From positions 1-41,880 of the IMG/VR virus record IMGVR_UViG_3300006033_000010: a DNA stretch of 41,880 bases. One strand, 5' to 3'. Position 1 is the stretch's first letter, and each line of letters begins with the position of its first letter. The DNA is from a virus. The translations under genes were made by a program, and so were the position numbers. Below the pieces are notes generated by a model. That model did no database searches. It saw only the letters and a list, made by a program, of their open reading frames with translations, and was not told the origin of the DNA. This document shows positions 23,042 through 38,045 of this stretch, piece after piece.

Positions 23042-24501
23042 CAGACTTCCCCCGCCTGCGTAGCGTCGAAATCGTAGCCCTGGGCCTTCGTCCAGTCCGC
23101 GCCTGCCGGCACGATCAGCTTGACCCGGCCATACCGGCCCTCGGCCTCGAGGCTGGCCATGCCGTGGGGTTCGAGGAAGCCCTCAGCCGTGTAAGCGGCG
23201 GTATCCATGACACGCTCGCGCATGGCGACAGACACCCTCACCTCGTCCGTGTCGACGACCGGGCGAACGCCCCGGACATAGGCCCGCCGCCCCTTCAGAA
23301 ACTCGACGTCGGACGCCTCGATCGTCGCCTCGAGATTGTCGCCGGCGAACACGCCGTACTGCGCCAGATGATTGAACGCGCCGAACCGCAGGGCGCCGCC
23401 GCGCAGGAGCGGATCGTCGAGCGGGATCTCGAAGTCATCGATCCCGGTGAGGGCGATCGCATCAAGGTCCTCGAGGGTGTAGCCGAGCCCCAGGGCGGTG
23501 AACACCAGCTCGGTCGGCGTCCTGATCAGGGACCAGCGCCGCTTGGGCCAGTAGTACATGAGCTGGCTGTCAGGGGCGCCCTCGGCCGAAGCCTTGCTCG
23601 GATAGCACCAGATGGCCAGCTGACGCGAAGGATCGACGGCCGAGCTCATGCGGTAGAGGTAGCTGGCGTTCACGTCGTTGATGAACCAGGCGTTGACGGC
23701 GCCCTCGCCTATGTTCACCGCGGGCTGGAAGCTGTCGACCTGGTAGAAGCCATCGGGCCCGAGCCAGAAAACCTTCTTGCCGTGCTGGCAGATGCTGTTG
23801 GGCTCGAGGCAACCGATCTTCTCCTCGAAGGGGTCGATCTGCATGATCAGTGGTGGACCCACATACTGCAGGATCCGCACCTTGGTCTGCTGGAAAATCA
23901 GGAGCGCGCTATCGGTCGGGGCGAAGCCCTGCAGGTCTCCGCCATCAGGCAGGATCTGCCTGTCGCACTGGTTGACGCCGATCGTGTGAAAGGTCGGATC
24001 GTTGATCCCGCTCCATCCTAGCTCCGAGGCCGAGTTGGTCGTGTAGCCGTAGAACAGGAAGTCGCGGAAGGTGCAGACGTGCTTCGCATTCGGAGGCGAG
24101 CCGGCGAGATCCGCGAACATGCCCGGGATCGACATTGTGCGGGCCTGCATCACGTCGTCGAAATTGGTTGCGATCGCGACATCGCCGAACTGGGCGAAGC
24201 GCCAGCGCGACGTGAGCCCGCAGCTGTAGGGCGAACCCGAGCGCGTCACGTCCAGAAAGCTGGTGTCGCTCTGCAGCTCGTACAGCTTGGTTTCGTCGCC
24301 GGCGAAGACATGGACGGTGGCGTTGGCGTCGGAGAAGGCGACCGCGCCCCTCGCCGGCGGCGTGTCGAGCGCGCTGCTTCCGACTGCGAAGCCCTGGAAG
24401 GGTCCATAATGGTCCGACGCCGGCGCCACGTTCAGGCACTGGATCAGGTGCGGGCCGGAGATGTCCGGCTGGTCAGGCAACCAGGGGCCGAGCGCGATCA
24501 C
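23041..24501 (-). CDS. P22 gp10-like packaged-DNA stabilisation / tail nozzle protein
   Basis: This protein has 486 residues from GTG 24501. The sequence shows the repeated short beta blades expected of a propeller, for example 'VHVFAGDETKLYELQSDTSF', 'RWRFAQFGDVAIATN', 'RDFLFYGYTT', 'KVFWLGPDGFYQVD' and 'LMYYWPKRRWSLI'. This order and length match the gp10-type nozzle ('phage stabilisation protein') that closes the portal-adaptor channel in P22-like phages. It lies directly after the adaptor gene with a 4-base overlap. Confidence 0.8.
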   Translation of the reverse strand: MIALGPWLPDQPDISGPHLIQCLNVAPASDHYGPFQGFAVGSSALDTPPARGAVAFSDANATVHVFAGDETKLYELQSDTSFLDVTRSGSPYSCGLTSRWRFAQFGDVAIATNFDDVMQARTMSIPGMFADLAGSPPNAKHVCTFRDFLFYGYTTNSASELGWSGINDPTFHTIGVNQCDRQILPDGGDLQGFAPTDSALLIFQQTKVRILQYVGPPLIMQIDPFEEKIGCLEPNSICQHGKKVFWLGPDGFYQVDSFQPAVNIGEGAVNAWFINDVNASYLYRMSSAVDPSRQLAIWCYPSKASAEGAPDSQLMYYWPKRRWSLIRTPTELVFTALGLGYTLEDLDAIALTGIDDFEIPLDDPLLRGGALRFGAFNHLAQYGVFAGDNLEATIEASDVEFLKGRRAYVRGVRPVVDTDEVRVSVAMRERVMDTAAYTAEGFLEPHGMASLEAEGRYGRVKLIVPAGADWTKAQGYDFDATQAGEV

Positions 24502-25142
24502 GGGGGCGTGCCCACGCGCATCACGAGCAGGCCGCCCGAAGCCTGGCCGAGATCTTCGCTTTCATTGGCGGCCGACACCGCGCCGGCAAACTCCTGCTCG
24601 TAGTAGCCCGCCACCTCGAAGTTGCGGATCTGGGCGAAGGCCTCAGCGAGAGCGCCATAGAGATACGCGTTCGGGCAGGTCTCCATGATCGTGTTGGTGT
24701 CGCCGTCGGACGCCGGCGTGGTCACGAGGCCATAGTGATACAGCGACAGCACGCCCGTATTGGCTGGCATGATCAGCAGCTGCCGGTTCTCGATCGTGTA
24801 GAACTGCGGAACGCCGCTGGACGTGAATAGGCCTGACGCCCGGAACTGCTCCGGCGGCATGTACTCAAGCGGCCGCGCGCCGGCGGTGTCCGTTGTGAGC
24901 CGCTTCATCTGCAGGTAGGTGTCCGGGAGCGTCGCGGCCCCGTTCGACGGGGTCAGCTCCGTCGTCGTCAGCATCCCGTCGATGCGCAGGGGTGGGATCA
25001 GCCAGTCGCGGCCGCGCTTGTGCCCTTTCATCATCTTCGAGTGGGCGGCCTGGATGAAGCCGGGGATCACCGCGGCCTTGTCGGACCGCGCGAGCCGCGC
25101 AGTCACCTCCGCCTTGATGCCGCCGAAGGTATCGAGGCTCAT
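24498..25142 (-). CDS. Head-to-tail adaptor protein (gp4/gp6-like)
   Basis: This protein has 214 residues from ATG 25142, which overlaps the glycosyltransferase stop. The N-terminal helices 'VIPGFIQAAHSKMMKGHK' and the later 'LPDTYLQMKRLTTDTAGARP', 'IENRQLLIMPANTGVLSLYH' and 'CPNAYLYGALAEAFAQIRNF' fit the phage adaptor family found between portal and nozzle in SU10/P22-type podoviruses. It would form a ring of about 12 copies under the portal. Confidence 0.75.
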   Translation of the reverse strand: MSLDTFGGIKAEVTARLARSDKAAVIPGFIQAAHSKMMKGHKRGRDWLIPPLRIDGMLTTTELTPSNGAATLPDTYLQMKRLTTDTAGARPLEYMPPEQFRASGLFTSSGVPQFYTIENRQLLIMPANTGVLSLYHYGLVTTPASDGDTNTIMETCPNAYLYGALAEAFAQIRNFEVAGYYEQEFAGAVSAANESEDLGQASGGLLVMRVGTPP

Positions 25143-25780
25143 GACCAGTGCTCCGCGATCCACGGAACATGGCTCTCGAGTTCGTGTGGCTTGTGCGAGC
25201 CGTGAAAGTAGACGATGCGGGCGTCACCCAGCCCGTAGTGCATGGCGTGGCCCTTGTAGCTGACAACATGGCCGGGGAAGAGGTCGTCTATGACGTCAAC
25301 CTCGCCGGCAGCGTACAGGCGTCGGTACGCGTCCATGTCGTTGCCGCGGCCGCCGTCCCTCCAGTTGCGGAAGATCTGCTCAGCCCCCTTTGGGGCCAGC
25401 ACCACGCCATTGCAGACTGTGTCGTGATGGAAGGGATCGCGAGGCACGGCCACTTTCTCTGCCGTCAGGCAGTATCTTGCCAGGTGATCCACGTTCCCGG
25501 TCACGACCGTGTCGAGCCCGCAAACGATCGCCGGCGCGCCCAGCCCCAGCGGCTCGATCAGGGCGCCATAGCCGGGCGGGTCCATCTCGATCGCGCGCTG
25601 CTGGATCTCCTCGACCGAATACTCGCGGGCGATGTCGGAGAAACACACGAACCGGAAAGGCGCGGTCAGGTTGCGGGCAAAACCCCGATACAGCTTCTCG
25701 ACCCAGCGCTCATCATACATGCGCGAGAAGTCGAAGCTCTCCTCGTTGGCGTCCCACAGGCAGCAGGCGATCGTGATCAT
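25139..25780 (-). CDS. Glycosyltransferase, GT-A fold (GT8-like)
   Basis: This protein has 213 residues. It opens with the strand 'MITIACCLWD', then 'PFRFVCFSD'. The 'IVCGLDTVVTGNVDHL' segment (85-100) is the metal/nucleotide-sugar site in the form G-L-D. 'CNGVVLAPKGAEQIF' follows, and 'VYFHGSHKPHE' near the end matches the HxGxxKPW region of GT8-type enzymes. It should transfer a sugar from a nucleotide donor. It is translationally coupled to a formyltransferase upstream and the tail adaptor downstream (ATGA junctions), so it is expressed with the virion genes. Confidence 0.75.
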   Translation of the reverse strand: MITIACCLWDANEESFDFSRMYDERWVEKLYRGFARNLTAPFRFVCFSDIAREYSVEEIQQRAIEMDPPGYGALIEPLGLGAPAIVCGLDTVVTGNVDHLARYCLTAEKVAVPRDPFHHDTVCNGVVLAPKGAEQIFRNWRDGGRGNDMDAYRRLYAAGEVDVIDDLFPGHVVSYKGHAMHYGLGDARIVYFHGSHKPHELESHVPWIAEHWS

Positions 25781-26529
25781 GCGCGCATGTCCTCGAATGT
25801 GGCGGCCTCGGCCTGCAGCTTTTCGTTGCCGTCATAGGCCGCGCAGATCTCGCGATACCGGACCTTGTAGGCATCGAAGCGTTTCATCACCTCGAAGTCC
25901 TGCGGCAGCGTCATCGGCCGGCGATAGACGCCCTCGCCGATCGGCGCGCCTGCGAAGGACGCCAGGGCGCGCGGGATCGCGGCGATCTGCGCCCACATGA
26001 CGCGATTGTAGATATCCGCCGGGCTGTCGTCGGGCATGACCTCGACGATATCCTCGAACAGCATCTGGCCGCGGTCCACGCGGCGGTCGATGACATGCGC
26101 CGCAACCGCTTGCGGCAGGCTATCGTGAACCGCCCATTTGAGCGTATCGAGCCCCCTGTTCAGGGGGAGCACGCCAGGGTGGAGGTTCACGATCGGCACG
26201 CCGGCGTCGACCACGTGAGGCGGCAGGACGCGAGCGCCGAGCACGATGCAGGCCTTCGCCCGCCACATGTTGATGAAGCCCGGAACGAGCATGTTCTCGT
26301 GCGGGCACACCCGGTAATCGTAGCCGAACGCGTCGGCGACCTCGCGCGGGTGATGCGCGTCGGCCATACCGTGCGTGCGGAACTGGTAGGGGCTCTCGTG
26401 GATCCCCAGCTCGCGTCGGGGCGCGGCGAGCACGCAGACATTCTCGTAGCCGGCGCGCTTCAGGGCGAACAGGCCCTGCGCGCTCTTGAAGTGCGGGAAG
26501 TCGTAGGCAAAGGCGATGATCCGCTTCAT
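25777..26529 (-). CDS. Formyltransferase (PF00551-type), probably acting on an amino sugar
   Basis: This protein has 250 residues. The formyl-transfer catalytic triad is visible: N115 and H117 in 'VNLHPGVLPLNRGLD' and D152 in 'IDRRVDRGQMLFED'. The spacing is as in GART and Met-tRNA formyltransferase (N106, H108, D144). The N terminus (MKRIIAFAYDFPHFKSAQGL) has no tRNA-binding C-terminal partner domain. Flanking glycosyltransferases on both sides suggest a sugar N-formyltransferase using 10-formyl-THF. The sugar substrate is unknown. Confidence 0.78.
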   Translation of the reverse strand: MKRIIAFAYDFPHFKSAQGLFALKRAGYENVCVLAAPRRELGIHESPYQFRTHGMADAHHPREVADAFGYDYRVCPHENMLVPGFINMWRAKACIVLGARVLPPHVVDAGVPIVNLHPGVLPLNRGLDTLKWAVHDSLPQAVAAHVIDRRVDRGQMLFEDIVEVMPDDSPADIYNRVMWAQIAAIPRALASFAGAPIGEGVYRRPMTLPQDFEVMKRFDAYKVRYREICAAYDGNEKLQAEAATFEDMRA

Positions 26530-27923
26530 TGGAGACGCCCCGAACTGGCGGCGCCCTGCGTCTTGTTCCGCAGCCGTTGCGCAGCCTTCGCGATCGCGCC
26601 CTGCCAGAACGGCCCCTGTCGCCGGATGATCTCGACACCCTGGTAAACCCAGGCCTCATCGCCGGCGGCCTCCGAGAAGCGCCATTGCGGCACGGGCGGC
26701 GTCAGCACCCAGCAGGGAACGCCCAGCGCGCCGGCGGCGTCCACGCATGTCTGCGGCACGCTGATCACGAGATCCAGTTCGGCGATCAGCGCGGCAGTCA
26801 GATCGTAATCGACGCCCTTGGCCGTCGCCCATGGGATTTCGTGAACGCCCGCCGGCGGCGGTCCGTTGAACTGGTACTCAAGCGAGACGAACTGACAGCC
26901 AGGCGAGGCCAGGATCGGCTTCAGCAGCTCAGGGTCGATGCAGCGCTGGGCGCGGTCCCAGGCCTTGACGCCGCCCGTCCAGGCGATGCCGACTTTCAGG
27001 CCCGGACCGAAGCTCTCGAGCAGGCCGCGGAACATGGCACGGTAGTGGCCATCGGCGACAAGATAGCGGTCGCGCCGGAACGGCTCAGGCGCCAAGAGCT
27101 CGCCGAGCCCCATGCTCTCCAACTTGTGCGTCGGCTTCTCGATCGACACCCAGCGCGGGTAATCCTCCAGCAGCGTGCCAAAGACCTGCACCTGCGGAAA
27201 GGATCTGCGGAACAGGCCTTCGAGCCGCGGCTCGCATTCGAGGATGATTTCGGCGTCCGTTCCCACAAGCCGGTCTATCATCGCGCCGGCGAGGATCTCG
27301 TCGCCGAGCCCCTGCTCACCATAAATCACCAGCTTGTCGCCCGCCTCGAGGTGGGCCAGATCGGTCAGGCGCCGCACGTCACGGAAATCATCCTCGCCTT
27401 CCCGGTGCGGGTAGGCTCGATCCTTGCGCTTATGGCTGTAGCGCCAGCGCGTCCAGGCCCGCTTCCAGTCGCCGGTCTGCATTTCAGCCAGGCCCAGATT
27501 GTGGTTCACGTCCGGATTTGTCGGATCGCGCTGCAGATAGTCGCGGCCGACTTCGACAGCATCGCTGAAGCGGCCAAGCGTCGAGAGGACGCCGACCGTG
27601 TTCTGGACAGCGGCGTCCAGCTCCCCCTCGAGACGCATCGCCCGCTCCAGCGCGTGCAGCGCCTCCTGGGGATGATACTCCTGCATCGCGCAGGCGAAGT
27701 TGTTCCATACCTCGGCGTCGTCAGGCCGCATCTTCGTGAGCATGCCCAGTAGCATCGCGGCGATGCCATACTTCTCCGACTTCAGCATGGCCGACGCCAC
27801 CGCCGACAGGCCCAGATGGTTGCCAGGGTCCAGCGCCAGCAGCTGGTCCCCGAGATTGATCATGTCCGGCCTGTGGTCAGCCTGCATGGCCGCCACAATC
27901 GCACGCTTCAGCTGGTCGCTCAC
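26526..27923 (-). CDS. TPR-repeat glycosyltransferase (GT-B, GT9/GT41-like)
   Basis: This protein has 465 residues from GTG 27923, preceded by GGGAGG. Residues 5-175 are TPR-like helical repeats (PDDAEVWNNFACAMQEYHPQ, PTNPDVNHNLGLAEMQTGDW). The catalytic part has 'LVIYGEQGLGDEILAGAMID' (glycine-rich loop), 'VGIAWTGGVKAWDRAQRCID', and 'AALIAELDLVISVPQTCVDA' with 'AGALGVPCWVLTPPVPQWRF', which match the donor-binding region of bacterial TPR glycosyltransferases. It probably modifies a protein or glycan. It is the first gene of a three-gene sugar cassette placed between head and tail genes. Confidence 0.82.
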   Translation of the reverse strand: MSDQLKRAIVAAMQADHRPDMINLGDQLLALDPGNHLGLSAVASAMLKSEKYGIAAMLLGMLTKMRPDDAEVWNNFACAMQEYHPQEALHALERAMRLEGELDAAVQNTVGVLSTLGRFSDAVEVGRDYLQRDPTNPDVNHNLGLAEMQTGDWKRAWTRWRYSHKRKDRAYPHREGEDDFRDVRRLTDLAHLEAGDKLVIYGEQGLGDEILAGAMIDRLVGTDAEIILECEPRLEGLFRRSFPQVQVFGTLLEDYPRWVSIEKPTHKLESMGLGELLAPEPFRRDRYLVADGHYRAMFRGLLESFGPGLKVGIAWTGGVKAWDRAQRCIDPELLKPILASPGCQFVSLEYQFNGPPPAGVHEIPWATAKGVDYDLTAALIAELDLVISVPQTCVDAAGALGVPCWVLTPPVPQWRFSEAAGDEAWVYQGVEIIRRQGPFWQGAIAKAAQRLRNKTQGAASSGRLQ

Positions 27924-28084
27924 GCGTCCACCTCCCGCCTGATTGTGAAACTGAAATCCCACCCGAGGATCCGGATGAAGACGAAGTCGTCGATCTCGCG
28001 CGCCCAGACGTCGCGATCGCGGATGAAGGAAAAACCCCGGGCGCCATAGCGCGGCGGCGTCAGCTTGACGTGTGCGATGCTCAC
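27920..28084 (-). CDS. Small hypothetical protein, 54 aa
   Basis: GTG 28084 and the stop at 27920 both overlap neighbouring genes (GTGA junctions). The product is beta-rich and aromatic: 'VSIAHVKLTPPRYGARGFSF', 'WAREIDDFVFIRILGWDFSF'. The tight packing argues that it is translated. It may be a small head-completion protein. No family is assigned. Confidence 0.55.
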   Translation of the reverse strand: MSIAHVKLTPPRYGARGFSFIRDRDVWAREIDDFVFIRILGWDFSFTIRREVDA

Positions 28085-28380
28085 AGCCGCTTGGGCATGC
28101 ACTTGAGGTAGGCGAACTCGCCGTTGAGGAGCTCGCGCACCTTGGGCCAGTCCTCCTCGCGGAAGACGTTTATCCCCCGCTGCAGCCACTGCTCGATCAC
28201 CATGTTGGGGATCGATGCAGCGTGCCAGAAGTCGTTGTCGTCGCCCCGCCATTCGCCGCTGGCGGAGATCTCGCGGGCGCGGTCCAGGAATGGCGTGCAA
28301 TCCTGGATGCGCTCCACCAGCAGGCTCCCGTCGGAACGGTCGAGCCGCCAGGTCTCCCGAATAGGCGAGAGCTCCTGCAT
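28081..28380 (-). CDS. Hypothetical protein, 99 aa, head-proximal
   Basis: ATG 28380 overlaps the upstream stop (TGATG). Sequence features are 'IRETWRLDRSDGSLLVERIQ', 'CTPFLDRAREI', 'GDDNDFWHAASIPNMVIEQW' and 'LLNGEFAYLKCMPKRL'. Short proteins with this 'HAASIPNxVIxxW' helix and a 'RELLNxxEYxxLRxxxKRL'-type end occur beside capsid genes in podoviruses. The exact role is not known to me. Confidence 0.65.
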   Translation of the reverse strand: MQELSPIRETWRLDRSDGSLLVERIQDCTPFLDRAREISASGEWRGDDNDFWHAASIPNMVIEQWLQRGINVFREEDWPKVRELLNGEFAYLKCMPKRL

Positions 28381-28931
28381 CAGATGATCTGCAGCAGGCC
28401 CTGGCCGCGCAGCGAATGCGCCAGCGACTTGCGCAACATGATCGGCCGGGCGTTCGGGTCAGGGAACACCTCGACCGATATCGCCTCCACGCTCGCGCCG
28501 TGAATATCGCGGCCGTCAATATGGAAGGTCTTCAGCGGCACGCACCTGACGTAGCCCTCGGGCAGTTCGCTGCCTTCCGGGGCCGCCAGGAGAGCGCGCT
28601 GCTCGGCCTTGACCTGCTGCGATTGCGCAAGCGAGCTGGCGCGCACGTCCACCTTGCGGATCTTGCCGCCGCCACCCTCAAGCGCGACCGCCTCCTTACC
28701 TTGCAGCTCCGCCGTCACTTCGGTCCGGATCACGCTGACGATGTTCGGAAGCTCTGCCTCAAGTTCTTCGCGGGCCTGCTTCACGGCATCTTCCCGCAGC
28801 TGCTGCAGCACTTCCGCCGGGATTTCCGGCGACACTGCCGGCCGGGGCGCTGCTTCGCGTTTGCCGCCGCCAGCCGGCTGTTGCGCCGACGGGCGTTTAC
28901 CCTCGCCGTTGCCGTTGTTCTCCGTTGACAT
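28380..28931 (-). CDS. Hypothetical virion-region protein, 183 aa
   Basis: ATG 28931 follows AAAGGAG. Residues 1-45 are low-complexity, Gly/Asn/Pro/Lys-rich. Residues 50-85 form an acidic helix (LQQLREDAVKQAREELEAEL). The C-terminal 90 residues form a beta domain with 'SELPEGYVRCVPLKTFHIDG' and 'ASVEAISVEVFPDPNARPIM'. It is the first gene after the capsid terminator and may be a head accessory protein. No family is recognised. Confidence 0.65.
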   Translation of the reverse strand: MSTENNGNGEGKRPSAQQPAGGGKREAAPRPAVSPEIPAEVLQQLREDAVKQAREELEAELPNIVSVIRTEVTAELQGKEAVALEGGGGKIRKVDVRASSLAQSQQVKAEQRALLAAPEGSELPEGYVRCVPLKTFHIDGRDIHGASVEAISVEVFPDPNARPIMLRKSLAHSLRGQGLLQII

Positions 28932-28970: not shown

Positions 28971-28999
28971 AAAGGCCGGCGCGATCGCTCGCGCCGGCC
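28971..28999 (-). terminator. Intrinsic terminator downstream of the capsid gene
   Basis: On the minus strand GGCCGGCGCGA pairs with TCGCGCCGGCC (11 perfect pairs, loop of four) and is followed by TTTTTATT (28973-28966). It lies 46 bases past the capsid stop. This would give the capsid and scaffold genes higher transcript levels than the tail genes, as in many phages. Confidence 0.9.
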
Positions 29000-29044
29000 C
29001 AGGTCGCAGAGGGAGAAACGCCGGCCTCAGCCAGCGCGTCACCC

Positions 29045-30037
29045 CTAGCTGGTCTTCAGATCGGCGCAGACGCCGTGCGCCTTTTCCTCTTTCACCTCGA
29101 GCGTGAGCTCGGCGTGCAGCAGGCGCTTGTCCGAGAGGCCGGTTTTCGCGAGCTTCTCCACCTTGAAGGGGTAGAGGTAGCGCAGCGACGCATATTCCGG
29201 GTTCAGGAACAGCGCCGAGCGGGAGCGCGAGAAGCGGTTGGCCACAACGCGGTGCTTGCCGAAATCCGACACGTAGATGTCGGCCGCGCCGATGATCGCC
29301 AGCGCCTTCGAGCTCTTGGCGCCCATCGGATATTGCTGGTTCGGGCTCGCGATGCCAGTGAAGCTCGAGGCCTTCGTCTTGTTGAAGGCGCCGACCACGA
29401 TCAGAGGCGATGCTCCACCGTCCGAGTTCTCCCAGATCGACTGGATCACCGCCTTCGCGCGCGCCTCGGTAAAGGTCCGCGTGTTGGTGGTGCTGGCATC
29501 CGTCGCCGCCACGGTCTGGCTCGTCGACGTGGTGTAGCCGCCGCTGGATCCGCCAGAGCCGCGGCTCACATTGGTCTTGAACCAGCTCTCCAGGCCGCCG
29601 AGACCGCGAGCTGTGGCGCGCGAGCCGTCATCCGAGGCGTAGTTGCCGCTGATCGTGAACTCGATGTCGCGCTTGATGCCCTTGGAGGCGAGCTGCACCT
29701 GGTAGAGCAGTTCCTGGCGGCGGCCGGCCGTATCGACCGCCTGCGCCGTCGTCGACACGCCCAGCGCTTCAGCGAAGATCTGCGTGTAGTTGCAGGGACG
29801 CTTGGTGCCGGTGCGGGTCTTCAGCGGAATGTCGTTACCGTCGAGCTGCTTGTTCACAGCCGCGGCGCGGACCGTATCGGTCTGCCATTCGACCTTTGTG
29901 TTCGTCGCCTTCTTCCCGCGGCCAAGCGCGGTCATGATGGGAGTGTCCATCGGAGCGACGTTGTAGATCCGATCGGACAGCTGCTCGCGCACGCCGACCT
30001 GATCGTATTTTACTTGGGTTGCTGCATCCACAGCCAT
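29045..30037 (-). CDS. Major capsid protein (SU10-type, HK97 fold)
   Basis: This protein has 330 residues. The opening 'YDQVGVREQLSDRIYNVAPM' with 'DTPIMTALGRGKKATNTKVE' and the centre 'TKRPCNYTQIFAEALGVSTT' with 'AVDTAGRRQELLYQVQLASK' are hallmarks of the SU10 major capsid family. A Gly/Ser/Thr-rich insertion follows (SRGSGGSSGGYTTSTSQTVA), then 'GAADIYVSDFGKHRVVANRF'. It follows the scaffold gene and is followed by a terminator. No separate prohead protease is seen. Confidence 0.88.
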   Translation of the reverse strand: MAVDAATQVKYDQVGVREQLSDRIYNVAPMDTPIMTALGRGKKATNTKVEWQTDTVRAAAVNKQLDGNDIPLKTRTGTKRPCNYTQIFAEALGVSTTAQAVDTAGRRQELLYQVQLASKGIKRDIEFTISGNYASDDGSRATARGLGGLESWFKTNVSRGSGGSSGGYTTSTSQTVAATDASTTNTRTFTEARAKAVIQSIWENSDGGASPLIVVGAFNKTKASSFTGIASPNQQYPMGAKSSKALAIIGAADIYVSDFGKHRVVANRFSRSRSALFLNPEYASLRYLYPFKVEKLAKTGLSDKRLLHAELTLEVKEEKAHGVCADLKTS

Positions 30038-31474: not shown

Positions 31475-33690
31475 CAGACTTTCTCGCCGCCGACTTCGGT
31501 TCTCGGCCCGGCCTTGAGACGGGCGCCCGCAACGCTCGCCATCGTCTTCGCCTGCGTCTCTTCACGCGAGAGCGCGACCTCGGCTCCGAGCTGCTCGCGC
31601 TTGGCCTGCGTCTCCGCCTGCAGCTTCATCATGAACTGCTGCATTTCCTGCTGCGTCTTCATCACGAACTGGCGCATGTCCTGCTGCATTTCCTGCATCT
31701 GTATCTGCGCCTTGGCCATGGCCTCCTGGGCCTTGGGATCCGCCGGCGGCTGCATCATCGCCGCCAGCGCCTTATCATCCAGCGTCGAGGGATCCGCGAA
31801 GAACTCGTCGGCCGACAGGAAGCCCATCTCGCGCACGATCTGCTCGACCGTGTTGTGCAGGTGCTTCGGGGTGACGATCGGGTTGGCCGGGCCGAAGCGC
31901 GCGACGACCTTCTCCTGCTGGACCATGATGCCCATCAGCTGGCCGATGCGCACCTGGCGGTTGCCTGTGCCCTGGCCGGTCTGGACGGCGACTTTCAGGG
32001 ACCGCGACCATTTCGACGGGTTGAACTTGCGGTAATCGGCCTTGTTGGCCTTCGCGCTCACATTGACCTCGCGCTCGGACTTCACATGCGCGACGTGCAG
32101 GCGCAGGAACTTGGTGAGGCCCGGGCCGAGGCCGGCTGCCATCGCCTCGAGATAGCACTCGACGCGCTCGGCCGACGCGTTCTGCAGCAGGTCGATCCCG
32201 CCCATCGTCTGGTTCAGCACGTCCGGGTTCATGCCCTGCAGGTGTTCGGTCACGCCCGTGCGGCGCTCCGTAAGGCGGTCCATCTTCTCCATCATCTTGA
32301 GAGCGGCGCCCGACAGGTCGGGCGTCGTCTCTTCCTTGATCACCTCCGCCGGCAGCTTCTGCGACTGCTGGTTCATGCGGATGATGCCGCCGGGCACGAC
32401 GTTGAGCAGGTCCGGCATGTTGATGTGACCGGGATGCACGACCTTGCGCGGGGTCACGGCAAGCGCCGAGGCGTTGTTCGCGTTGCGCAGGTGAACCGTG
32501 TTCGTGCGCTGGATATCGCTCTCGACGTCGGCTATCGACAGGCCGATCAGACGGTGCGGGATCCTGATCGGGGTCCAGTAGAAATACGGGTTATCGTCCG
32601 CCGGCTCCGCCTCCAGCAGCAGGTCGCCAATGCTCCAGCACTCGAGCAGCTCGGGATAGCCATCACCGTCCCGGTCAAAGCGGATGTATTCGCGGAAAAG
32701 CTCGATGTCGTCTTCGTCCTCGCGCTGGGCCGAGACGCTGCTCTCGTCCAGGTCCCAGAAGCGCGCCTGCCGGCGCGCGTCATTGGTCACGCCGAGCGCG
32801 TCGCTGCCCGCCACCTCGTCGATCTCGTCAGCCTTGTCCGGCCACATCGCCTTGATGCGCGACAGCGTCCGCCGCATCTTGTGCCCGCAGTAAGGCGGGT
32901 CCGTCAGGTCAACGGCCAGGCGCGAGACGAGGATATCCTCGGGCGCAATGATCTCTATGACCGCCTTGGCCGGCCGGCGCACGTGCTGCACCACCGCCAC
33001 AAAAGTCTGCTCCTGGCCGTCGCCGCTCTCCGGCTGGATATCGCGCAGCTCGAATGGCGCGTCAGGCTTCTGCGCATCCGTCGCGAGCTGCTGCGCCTGC
33101 AGCAGATTGAGCCCGCCGGCCTTCTCCGGCGGGCCGAGCTCGGCCTCCTCCCAACAGACGGCGCCCCAGCCGATTTTCTGCAGGGCGCCGTCGAAGAAGA
33201 AATCGTCAAAGATCGCGTGTCCGTCGAGCTGCTGGGGATCACCGAAGAGGACGCCGCGCAGATAGTCCTGCGCTTCCTGGGCCTGCTGGGCCGCCTCCTC
33301 GCCCGGCGCCCACGGCTCGACCGTGATGGTCTTCGCGCCGCGCCCAAACATCCGCTTGGCCTTCGGGCGCATGGCCTCGATCGTCTCGAACACTTCGCGC
33401 GTGTGAACCCGGCTGGATCCGGCGATCTCGTCGCCATAGTCCTTGCCCAGATAGCGGTCGAAGGCCTTGACCTGGTCGTCGGCGATCTGGTCGCCATCGT
33501 GCCCGAGGCTGGCGGCCCGCTCGGCCATCAGGGCGAGCATCAGGTCCTCGTCCGCCTGCTCCTCGCCATCCTCGTCCTCGTCTTCATCGCCCTCGCGCAT
33601 GGCGAGTTCGGCGGCTTCCTGCTCGCCGGCGTCGTCTTCCGCGCCGCCGAGCATGGCCTCGCGCGCTTCGTGAGCCGCTCCCCGCGCCAT
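31474..33690 (-). CDS. Portal protein (P22 type)
   Basis: This protein has 738 residues. The N terminus is acidic (EGDEDEDEDGEEQADEDLML). Family-like segments are 'AGSSRVHTREVFETIEAMRP', 'NPYFYWTPIRIPHRLIGLSI', 'DVESDIQRTNTVHLRNANNA' and 'ERRTGVTEHLQGMNPDVLNQ'. The last 100 residues are a long Gln/Met/Glu helix (QIQMQEMQQDMRQFVMKTQQ) that could form a P22-like barrel or coiled coil. It makes the 12-fold ring through which DNA is packaged. The start overlaps the terminase nuclease stop. Confidence 0.9.
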   Translation of the reverse strand: MARGAAHEAREAMLGGAEDDAGEQEAAELAMREGDEDEDEDGEEQADEDLMLALMAERAASLGHDGDQIADDQVKAFDRYLGKDYGDEIAGSSRVHTREVFETIEAMRPKAKRMFGRGAKTITVEPWAPGEEAAQQAQEAQDYLRGVLFGDPQQLDGHAIFDDFFFDGALQKIGWGAVCWEEAELGPPEKAGGLNLLQAQQLATDAQKPDAPFELRDIQPESGDGQEQTFVAVVQHVRRPAKAVIEIIAPEDILVSRLAVDLTDPPYCGHKMRRTLSRIKAMWPDKADEIDEVAGSDALGVTNDARRQARFWDLDESSVSAQREDEDDIELFREYIRFDRDGDGYPELLECWSIGDLLLEAEPADDNPYFYWTPIRIPHRLIGLSIADVESDIQRTNTVHLRNANNASALAVTPRKVVHPGHINMPDLLNVVPGGIIRMNQQSQKLPAEVIKEETTPDLSGAALKMMEKMDRLTERRTGVTEHLQGMNPDVLNQTMGGIDLLQNASAERVECYLEAMAAGLGPGLTKFLRLHVAHVKSEREVNVSAKANKADYRKFNPSKWSRSLKVAVQTGQGTGNRQVRIGQLMGIMVQQEKVVARFGPANPIVTPKHLHNTVEQIVREMGFLSADEFFADPSTLDDKALAAMMQPPADPKAQEAMAKAQIQMQEMQQDMRQFVMKTQQEMQQFMMKLQAETQAKREQLGAEVALSREETQAKTMASVAGARLKAGPRTEVGGEKV

Positions 33691-34451
33691 CAGGCAATAC
33701 CCAGGTTGGCGTGCATCGGGCGCGTGAGGTCATGTCCGGGGCCGGGATCCTGGACGGCGAACCGCTTCATCATCAGCGCATAGCGGCTGGCGGAGATCAG
33801 GTCGTCGACAAGCTTCACGATCTGCCCCTCCACGCGGTGGTAGTAGCTGACCTCGTCGCAGTACGCGCCGCAGGTCTCGAAAACCTTGAACCGTCCCGTC
33901 TGCATGCGCACGAGCATGTCCATGACGCCGGCCTCGACGCTGACCTTGCTGGTGTCGCCGCCTTCCTCGAAGGTGGCCCAGCTCTCCAGCATGTTGAGCC
34001 CCTGCTCGCGATACTGAGGCGCAAGCGGCTTGCCCGAGCCCTTCTCGTGACCCTCGCCGTCCGCCGGCCAGGCGCACGGGATCCACGCTCCCCAGGGCTT
34101 GATCGCTGCAGCGTGGACGATCGGCGTCTGCTCGCGCTGCCGGTACTCGGCGCAGACGTAGAAGATATCGTTGTCGGCGTCGTAGGCGCAGCGCACGGCG
34201 CCGAAGGGGTGATCCCAGCCGAAGTCGAGGCCGTTGATCTGGAAGAAGTGCGCCGGGATCTTGAACGGTGCACACTTGATCGTGTCGACATCGATCGGGA
34301 AGACGCGACCAGAACCAAGCTGCGGAATGCCCTTGCCGCGCGCCTCGCGCTCGTGCGCCGGATAGCCCGCGACGATCGCGTCGGCCTGCTCCTTCGTGTA
34401 GAGAACGCCAATCGTGTCGTCGATCGTCGCGCGTGTGACGAGCTTGCTCAT
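33690..34451 (-). CDS. Terminase large subunit, nuclease half (split gene)
   Basis: This protein has 253 residues, corresponding to the C-terminal half of podovirus-type large terminases. Markers are 'YPAHEREARGKGIPQLGSGR' (linker region conserved in full-length homologues), 'INGLDFGWDHPFGAVR' with metal ligands near D76 and D80, 'VEAGVMDMLVRMQTGRFKVF' and 'LVDDLISASRYALMMKRFA'. ATG 34451 overlaps the ATPase-half stop (ATGA) in the -1 frame. The two proteins would need to assemble, or a frameshift would join them. The nuclease cuts concatemeric DNA during packaging. Confidence 0.87.
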   Translation of the reverse strand: MSKLVTRATIDDTIGVLYTKEQADAIVAGYPAHEREARGKGIPQLGSGRVFPIDVDTIKCAPFKIPAHFFQINGLDFGWDHPFGAVRCAYDADNDIFYVCAEYRQREQTPIVHAAAIKPWGAWIPCAWPADGEGHEKGSGKPLAPQYREQGLNMLESWATFEEGGDTSKVSVEAGVMDMLVRMQTGRFKVFETCGAYCDEVSYYHRVEGQIVKLVDDLISASRYALMMKRFAVQDPGPGHDLTRPMHANLGIA

Positions 34452-35188
34452 CCGGTCATCTTCTTGACCGCGTCAGCATCCAGGAACTGGCGCACCACTT
34501 CCGACAACCCCAGCAGGGGCGTGAACGTGATCATCGTGAAGATCCCCCGCTGCCCAAGCTGCGTCCGGGTCCTGCCTTCCGAATAGATGTCCGCCGGCGG
34601 CTCCTCGTCGAACCAGAGGCAATCGACGGTGTCGCCCTGCCACTTCTCGCGGCCCTTCTCGTAGCTCTTGAACATGATCACGGATTGGTCGGCCTGGATG
34701 TCACCGCCGCCGCCCCACCTCACCACGACGCTGTCAAGCGCGTCCGGCAGGCCGCGCGAGGGGTTGGTGTCGATCAGCGCGTCGAACGGCAGGGATCCCG
34801 TGCCCCACTTGTCCTTGAACTGCGGCTGGCCCACCAGGACGCGCTGCGGGTTGTCGCGCGTGCTCTCGCCGGTCACACCCGACACCCAGATCTTCGGGGC
34901 CTTGTCGAACGTCGCGCCCTCCCACCAGTCGGGATAGCGCCCCGTCGCATGCATCGCTGTTTCAGAGCCGCCGCACCAGGTCTTGCCCTGCTGGTTGCCC
35001 GCCATGAACAGACGCTCGCAACCGTCGGCATCCCGCCGCGCGCCGTTGTTGTGGAACTCCAGCTGCTTCGAGTAGGGCGTATAAGCCTTAAGCCTGTTGC
35101 GCTCCGCCCGTGTCGCCTTCTCCTTGAGCGCCTTTGCCACCAGCCGCCGCACGTCCGAGGACGGCAAGTCCTTGATCGATGAGTGCAT
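34448..35188 (-). CDS. Terminase large subunit, ATPase half (split gene)
   Basis: This protein has 246 residues. Walker A is 'MAGNQQGKTWCGG' (K69). 'GRYPDWWEGATF' is typical of this terminase family. Walker B with catalytic Glu is 'VDCLWFDEEPP' (188-198), and the coupling motif region is 'FTMITFTPLLGLSEVVRQFL'. The frame stops immediately after the ATPase domain, at the point where homologues continue into the nuclease domain. The first 101 bases overlap the small-subunit gene. GTG 35152 is an alternative start. Confidence 0.88.
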   Translation of the reverse strand: MHSSIKDLPSSDVRRLVAKALKEKATRAERNRLKAYTPYSKQLEFHNNGARRDADGCERLFMAGNQQGKTWCGGSETAMHATGRYPDWWEGATFDKAPKIWVSGVTGESTRDNPQRVLVGQPQFKDKWGTGSLPFDALIDTNPSRGLPDALDSVVVRWGGGGDIQADQSVIMFKSYEKGREKWQGDTVDCLWFDEEPPADIYSEGRTRTQLGQRGIFTMITFTPLLGLSEVVRQFLDADAVKKMTG

Positions 35189-37211: not shown

Positions 37212-38045
37212 TCAAGCGGGTCCGGAAGGTGAACGTGACAGCTGCTTGCGCGACAACACCACCGGCGTCTCTCTGCCAAAAATCCGCGCTGTCACGGTGA
37301 ACTGGCTGCCTTCGATGGCTTCGATCACGCCGTCGAAACCCATGAATGGCCCTTCCTTGATCCTGACCGTGTCGCCGATCGCCCAATGTGTCGCAGCGCC
37401 TTTCGCGGCTGCCGCCGGCGCGGAGGCGTGGTGCATCGCCTCGGTCGCCGGGATCGTGACGACGCGGTCGGAGCCGAGCATGCGCAGCTCCACCGTGGCG
37501 AACTTCCCCTCCTTGTCGACCGAAATGCACTTCGCCCGGAACTGGAAGAAAACCTTGTTCGTGATCAGCACCTCGTCGCCTTCGACATAGTCGACCGCCG
37601 GCGCGTCGCCGACCACCTCGGCCAGCTGGGCGATGTTCTCGCAGTCGCGGAGCTCCTTCCACGTCCGCCAGTTACGCGGCAGCTTCAGCGGCCAGTCCTC
37701 CCACCGCCCGCCGCCGACATCGCGCTGCGTCGTGAACACGCCCGTCACCAGGTCGAGCGCCAGCAGGCGCGGCCAGCCATCCGTGCGCTGCAGCCAGCCC
37801 GGCGCGCCAACGAACAGATAGCCCGGCCAGGACACGAACCGTCGGCGCTCCTTCGCGGTCTCCGCCGCGTTCGGCCCCTTCCCGCCGCGCTGGCGCGAAT
37901 GCTTCAGCACGGTCTTGCGATAGCCCGGAAGGAAGCTCTCCCAGCCGATGCGCAACAGCGCCGCCGCCGCCGCCCGCTCCATGCCCGGCCGTACCGTCAC
38001 GAGAAACCAGTCAACGCCGTTGATGGGATCATTCGTGGTGCTCAT
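37212..38045 (-). CDS. NusG/RfaH-like transcription factor with two KOW-like domains
   Basis: This protein has 277 residues. Residues 11-108 fit an NGN domain: 'VDWFLVTVRPGMERAAAAAL', 'GWESFLPGYRKTV' and 'RRFVSWPGYLFVGAPG', the last matching the R..PLFPGYLF motif. Two KOW-like segments follow, 'VEGDEVLITNKVFFQFRAKC' (154-198) and 'AIGDTVRIKEGPFMGFDGVI' (222-265). The second is a canonical KOW. Cellular NusG is about 180 residues with one KOW. It should bind RNA polymerase and alter pausing or termination. The position just before the early/late terminator suggests antitermination of late genes, which is an inference. Confidence 0.82.
   Translation of the reverse strand: MSTTNDPINGVDWFLVTVRPGMERAAAAALLRIGWESFLPGYRKTVLKHSRQRGGKGPNAAETAKERRRFVSWPGYLFVGAPGWLQRTDGWPRLLALDLVTGVFTTQRDVGGGRWEDWPLKLPRNWRTWKELRDCENIAQLAEVVGDAPAVDYVEGDEVLITNKVFFQFRAKCISVDKEGKFATVELRMLGSDRVVTIPATEAMHHASAPAAAAKGAATHWAIGDTVRIKEGPFMGFDGVIEAIEGSQFTVTARIFGRETPVVLSRKQLSRSPSGPA

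Follow-up and report, generated by a model that had tools for sequence, protein, structure and literature searches.

Relation to described systems

Mycobacteriophages are established examples of phages that encode the glycosylation of capsid and tail or tail-tube proteins (PMC12363180; PMC12619734; citing Freeman 2023). In Che8, Corndog and Myrna, capsid and tail-tube proteins are the known targets of the phage glycosyltransferases (PMC12363180). The present analysis concerns a cassette of three genes, encoding a TPR glycosyltransferase (TPR-GT), a formyltransferase (FMT) and a GT8-like glycosyltransferase (GT8), located in the virion operon of an uncultivated SU10-like podovirus. The window, i.e. 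the whole stretch of DNA analysed, is the IMG/VR virus record IMGVR_UViG_3300006033_000010, 41,880 bases long with a G+C content of about 66%. By family and by fold it encodes glycosyltransferases of its own, as the mycobacteriophages do; no acyltransferase is described in the available parts of the mycobacteriophage reports, whereas this operon pairs the GT8 with a swappable formyl or acetyl acyltransferase. A literature search, mostly confined to papers outside subscription, found neither a phage formyltransferase-glycosyltransferase pairing in structural operons nor any report of virion operons that carry a formyl or acetyl transferase module. Virion glycosylation is thus already known, while no description of an exchangeable formyl/acetyl module was found.

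We incline, if not strongly, to read the cassette as an allele at a modular locus whose products would glycosylate with N-acylated amino sugars, set in the late particle-assembly operon, with a virion protein as the most likely acceptor. This reading draws on gene order, an intact catalytic triad, predicted folds, replacement of formyl by acetyl transferase, co-exchange of neighbouring genes and recurrence in unrelated virion operons, all of them read at the level of sequence.

Organization of the cassette

The head-tail operon lies on the minus strand and comprises terminase (33690-35188), portal, scaffold, major capsid protein, two small genes, the cassette, an SU10-type adaptor and a P22-gp10-like protein. 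The cassette and its borders, with lengths in amino acids (aa), are as follows.

29045-30037, minus strand: major capsid protein, delimiting the variable slot on its upstream side (Pfam SU10_MCP 6e-84)
26526-27923, minus strand: TPR-GT, 465 aa, GTG start; about 160 aa of TPR repeats, then a GT-B/OGT-like domain (Pfam TPR, model and fold search); relatives retain it between capsid and adaptor genes
25777-26529, minus strand: N-formyltransferase (FMT), 250 aa, triad N115-H117-D152 (Pfam PF00551 1.5e-12; PDB profile search)
25139-25780, minus strand: GT8-like GT-A glycosyltransferase, 213 aa, GLD replacing DxD, FHGxxKP motif (phrog_1962, glycogenin-like fold, 156 viral relatives)
24498-25142, minus strand: SU10-type head-tail adaptor, translationally coupled to the cassette (Pfam SU10_adaptor 5.4e-23; ATGA overlap)

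The original prediction had placed three ATGA-coupled genes between head and tail genes, directly upstream of the tail adaptor, and the open reading frames (ORFs), their junctions and the SU10-type capsid and adaptor genes on either side bear this out. Read directly in the sequence, the TPR-GT/FMT junction 'CCAATGAAG', the FMT/GT8 junction 'CGCATGATC' and the GT8/adaptor junction 'GTCATGAGC' are all ATGA overlaps. The GTG start codon of the TPR-GT, at 27923, is preceded by a GGAGG site. Sigma-70-like promoters were not found within the cassette region, and cassette and adaptor are probably transcribed together. The enzyme classes proposed for the three products agree with the Pfam, phrog_1962 and fold matches.

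Content of the capsid-adaptor slot in relatives

Relatives were gathered by means of the major capsid protein, and further sets by means of the GT8 (156 confirmed stretches in uncultivated viruses, 80 kept) and the TPR-GT (at least 569 confirmed stretches, 80 kept). In most of the 80 TPR-GT contigs kept, the TPR-GT gene comes after the capsid gene and before the adaptor gene. What lies between TPR-GT and adaptor varies in this set: acetyltransferase and GT8, FMT and GT8, another GT8, a GT9 with a methyltransferase and a glycosyltransferase, or nothing recognised.

The three-gene synteny, which it had been proposed to look for in other phages, was found in two contigs, L003 and L010, where TPR-GT, FMT, GT8 and adaptor occupy the same slot in the same order, with FMTs 54-55% identical to that of the window; since the gene order recurs, the cassette is not a chance arrangement. 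In L002, L004/L005 and L007 the order is TPR-GT, a hexapeptide (LbH) N-acetyltransferase, GT8 and adaptor. By a hand count of distinct phages, three SU10-like phages with a GT8 module carry the FMT (the window, L003 and L010) and about 18 carry the acetyltransferase. The cassette is thus not a one-off insertion; as far as gene content tells, it is a single version of an exchangeable locus that is widespread and at which acetylation appears to be the rule and formylation the exception.

The best PDB relatives of the acetyltransferase are the sugar N-acetyltransferases 7s3u, 4mzu (WxcM-like) and 3mqg, with QdtC (3fs8) lower, all of which we take to be acetyltransferases of nucleoside diphosphate (NDP)-3-amino-sugars. 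The gene occupying the place of the FMT in sister phages resembles the hexapeptide enzymes WlbB, WxcM/FdtD and QdtC; unlike these, the phage enzymes stand alone, paired with a GT8, and in the loci examined neither the dehydratase nor the aminotransferase step accompanies them.

The association with GT8 is close. An acetyltransferase lies at most two genes upstream in 57 of the 64 distinct GT8s, and adjacent pairs share a 4-bp overlap in 28 of 62 cases; among the remaining seven, L051 and L059 are the FMT phages L010 and L003 again, and the others are at a contig edge or have the acetyltransferase elsewhere nearby. A head or tail gene verified by Pfam lies within about five genes in 43 of the 64 GT8 loci, a descriptive count, and these genes include SU10-type capsid and adaptor, HK97-type capsid, portal, connector, head completion, E-type capsid, and DUF4055 portal and terminase. 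The acetyltransferase-GT8 pair is present also in virion operons of unrelated phages, beside HK97-type capsid, E-type capsid, DUF4055 portal and connector genes. At some GT8 loci the island is larger and also includes GT9, a second GT8, methyltransferase or sulfotransferase-like genes. Against 50,697 catalogued phage records, the cassette DNA found nothing, and the GT8 of the window, that of a sister phage and the acetyltransferase found only remote matches, the acetyltransferase-GT8 pair being almost absent from such records.

Three further arrangements of the slot were observed. In Sinorhizobium phage phiM5 (L016, 7728-9038) it holds a GDSL/SGNH hydrolase annotated as detected in the particle proteome; in Manatee Spring phage MW202512 (L012, 7644-11077) it holds TPR-GT, an HNH-like ORF, a methyltransferase and a Pfam-verified GT8; and in L010 (6439-7136) TPR-GT and FMT are separated by a minus-strand AlpA-like helix-turn-helix ORF and a 130-aa ORF.

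Exchange of the acyltransferase-GT8 module

Two pairs of closely related phages differ mainly in this module. Between L003 (formyl) and L050 (acetyl) the TPR-GTs are 86%, the adaptors 84% and the gp10-like proteins 91% identical, whereas the GT8s are 62% identical and the middle genes are unrelated. Between L048 and L092, both with an acetyltransferase, the corresponding values are 98% for the major capsid protein, 92% for TPR-GT, 94% for the adaptor and within 92-98% for the gp10-like protein, against 52% for the acetyltransferase and 64% for GT8. In both pairs DNA divergence sets in at the TPR-GT stop codon and fades inside the GT8 gene; the N-terminal parts of the GT8s are 41% and 51% identical and the C-terminal parts 78% and 74%. 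The FMT-paired GT8s of the window, L003 and L010 form one clade (support 95/89), in conflict with the phage backbone, where L003 is nearest to L050.

In these comparisons the TPR-GT stays with the backbone, and only the acyltransferase and part of the GT8 are exchanged. The sharp divergence of the module, together with the conflict between clade and backbone, indicates that GT8, or at least its first half, probably travels with its acyltransferase. Donor specificity would be an appealing explanation of this co-exchange. Near-identical phage pairs differing in this module alone would offer clean natural comparisons.

Identity of the formyltransferase

The FMT matches Pfam Formyl_trans_N (PF00551) with 48.1 bits, above the gathering cut-off of 26.1. 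The N-H-D triad noted in the original prediction (N115, H117, D152) is present, and is invariant in three close and eight wider homologues, down to 28% identity. In a PDB profile search the LgrA formylation domain is nearest, followed by dTDP-4-amino-4,6-dideoxyglucose formyltransferase, VioF and PseJ, with PurN enzymes lower. The protein thus shares domain, triad and top profile matches with the bacterial NDP-sugar N-formyltransferases (VioF, dTDP-4-amino-4,6-dideoxyglucose formyltransferase, PseJ, ArnA N-domain); it differs from them in that only about 80-120 core residues align, scores lie under the NCBIfam equivalog cut-offs, and the phage locus is devoid of their usual partner biosynthesis genes. 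As a single query the FMT found no relative in viral contigs, and neither as a single query nor as an alignment did it find one in bacterial and archaeal genomes.

Two genomic contexts lend independent support to a sugar role for this type of formyltransferase, as judged from neighbouring genes. In L025 a distant homologue lies among glycosyltransferase-like, NDP-sugar epimerase-like and methyltransferase genes, next to the start of a PseC-like aminotransferase. In the T4-like contigs L026-L033, which carry RegA, DNA polymerase B and clamp loader genes, a GT8-like gene is followed by an FMT; the GT8-FMT pair is therefore not always located in a virion operon.

A role in purine or one-carbon auxiliary metabolism, in which a PurN-like FMT would boost nucleotide synthesis and the glycosyltransferase neighbourhood would be accidental, was considered in this light. 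The NCBIfam PurN model TIGR00639 scores 42.1 bits (cut-off 150.1), close to the 42.3 of the dTDP-sugar formyltransferase model, both far under cut-off, and related genes of cyanophages carry the annotation phosphoribosylglycinamide formyltransferase. On the other hand, a sugar N-acetyltransferase takes the same position in sister phages, pairing with GT8 recurs in two phage groups, the top PDB profile matches besides the LgrA domain are sugar formyltransferases, and a homologue sits in a sugar gene cluster; a purine role is considered very improbable. Without a test, a purine auxiliary role should not be assigned to phage 'formyltransferase' genes lying beside glycosyltransferases. The formyltransferases of cyanophages P-SSM7 and P-SSM2 do not lie beside a GT8-like gene, and no reannotation is claimed for them.

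The T4-like pairs, being adjacent to replication genes, also bear on the idea that an acylated sugar is placed on modified bases of the phage DNA; phage glycosyltransferases that modify DNA do exist (PMC12619734). No base-modifying enzyme was found among the window genes scanned, however, and the location among head-tail genes and the OGT-like TPR protein speak against DNA as the acceptor, which is given hardly any weight.

Identity of the glycosyltransferases

The GT8 matches phrog_1962 'glycosyltransferase' (1.6e-37) and no Pfam family, Glyco_transf_8 included. Its AlphaFold model (pLDDT 97.5) has glycogenin as best PDB fold match (E 2.4e-8, TM-score 0.64). Glycogenin and other GT8 enzymes have D90-T and an HG..KP-like motif in common with the phage protein, which differs from them in lacking a Pfam Glyco_transf_8 match and in having GLD (88-90) where DxD is expected; D90 is invariant and G88 is present in 89% of homologues. 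Profile-profile comparison with a second phage GT8 family was not significant.

Catalysis by GT8 is not assured, because the first Asp of DxD is missing, and the cassette might be degenerate, its genes persisting with an inactive GT8. Against this, the frames are open and strongly conserved in more than 60 lineages, the GLD is itself conserved, the FMT triad is invariant, and a metal-independent glycosyltransferase (4ayl) is among the fold matches; a non-catalytic cassette seems most improbable.

The TPR-GT consists of ten TPR-like helices, recognised by Pfam as TPR repeats, and a Rossmann-like second half. SPINDLY/OGT is the best PDB fold match (E 3e-12), with a whole-length TM-score of only about 0.35. 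The predicted order of TPR superhelix and GT-B-like domain resembles that of OGT and SPINDLY (GT41), the top fold matches, from which the TPR-GT is set apart by 12% identity, the low whole-length score and the absence of a Pfam GT41 match. Profile-profile comparison gave at most a hint of a relationship to phage GT9 proteins.

Proposed activity and acceptor

The original prediction had taken an amino sugar as the substrate, and the replacement of FMT by a sugar N-acetyltransferase in sister phages makes this likely. Formyl/acetyl replacement at one operon position is, by homology, the best indirect evidence on the substrate, and the L025 homologue, beside PseC-like aminotransferase and epimerase-like genes, points the same way. 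As had also been noted, the ORFs scanned in the window include no aminotransferase or dehydratase. N-acylation of an amino sugar, coupled to glycosyl transfer, is the likely chemistry.

The enzymatic steps, the sugar, the target and the benefit can be inferred in outline, for a pathway that would act late and in the cytosol. The FMT would transfer the formyl group from N10-formyl-tetrahydrofolate to the free amino group of a host-supplied, nucleotide-linked amino sugar, a step that the N-acetyltransferase of sister phages would carry out with acetyl-CoA. The TPR superhelix of the TPR-GT would recognise a protein, to which a first sugar would be attached, and the GT8-like enzyme would add the acylated sugar, probably to the one already in place. 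Candidate acceptors are the capsid, a neighbouring small head protein and a tail part, and new particles would leave with a coat of formamido sugars. A swap of the acyltransferase and the 5' part of the GT8 gene would alter coat chemistry, leaving the assembly genes untouched.

A virion protein is the best guess for the acceptor, because the three enzymes look soluble (none has a hydrophobic stretch of membrane-span length) and are made together with the adaptor. The main rival is remodelling of the host surface, in which lipopolysaccharide, capsule or flagellin would be modified late in infection or in lysogens, so as to prevent re-adsorption of virions to debris or to exclude rivals. N-formyl and N-acetyl amino sugars are ordinary constituents of bacterial O-antigens and flagellins, e.g. 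in perosamine polymers, the substrates are presumably nucleotide sugars of the host, and a tyrosine integrase encoded on the plus strand of the window suggests a temperate phage. The cassette is nevertheless without a lipid-carrier glycosyltransferase, flippase or membrane protein, and no Pfam match to the membrane flippase or lipid-carrier glycosyltransferase genes of a Gtr-type seroconversion cassette was obtained; moreover, the location in particle-assembly operons is repeated in several unrelated phage kinds, and the TPR domain suggests a protein acceptor. Host surface modification is judged unlikely, though well ahead of the alternatives discussed above.

Several observations weigh against virion glycosylation by an exchangeable module. 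The GT8 lacks the first Asp of DxD, with GLD in nearly all homologues, and the likeness of the TPR-GT to OGT comes partly from the TPR part and has a low whole-length TM-score. The T4-like GT8-FMT pair adjoins replication rather than virion genes. No Pfam-verified structural gene is found within about five genes in 21 of the 64 GT8 loci. The co-exchange of the GT8 5' half may be simple linkage. Finally, a Ser/Thr-rich loop of the capsid, taken as glycosylation site, fails to separate phages with and without the cassette.

A broader proposal, advanced tentatively, is that the locus represents a plug-in module for coat chemistry in virion operons of several unrelated phage lineages, in which an N-acyltransferase (acetyl, more rarely formyl) is co-exchanged with the 5', donor-side half of a glycosyltransferase, beside a conserved TPR protein-glycosyltransferase, and which might work as virion surface variation, an antigenic or receptor-shield polymorphism in the environment. 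If so, virion glycosylation, so far known chiefly in mycobacteriophages, would be a frequent and modular trait of uncultivated phages, with a bearing on adsorption, decay and recognition of particles. Such phages would vary the surface chemistry of their particles by swapping small acyltransferase-glycosyltransferase modules and would have formamido sugars in their repertoire.

Other features of the window and of related contigs

The following elements lie between the capsid gene and the cassette.

28973-29000, minus strand: intrinsic-terminator-like hairpin at the capsid gene/slot boundary (12-bp stem, 10 GC pairs, T-rich tail)
28380-28931, minus strand: small virion-operon gene 3' of the capsid gene (ORF; similar-size gene at the same place in relatives)
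28081-28380, minus strand: 99-aa gene immediately 5' of TPR-GT, conserved in relatives (tblastn to L002-L008)
27920-28084, minus strand: 54-aa ORF between the 99-aa gene and TPR-GT (GTGA overlap with the TPR-GT start); no counterpart in the relatives examined

The hairpin is strong and separates the capsid gene from all downstream genes; it could make expression of the cassette lower than that of the capsid. A NusG/KOW-domain protein (37212-38045, minus strand) is a possible phage antitermination factor for the late operon. The large terminase is encoded by two minus-strand genes, 33690-34451 and 34448-35188, corresponding to Terminase_6N (ATPase) and Terminase_6C (nuclease) and joined by an ATGA overlap; it is split also in the related contig L008, in different frames and again with an ATGA overlap. 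In L034 (2173-3906) a Mu protein F-like domain is fused to an ADP-ribosyltransferase domain.

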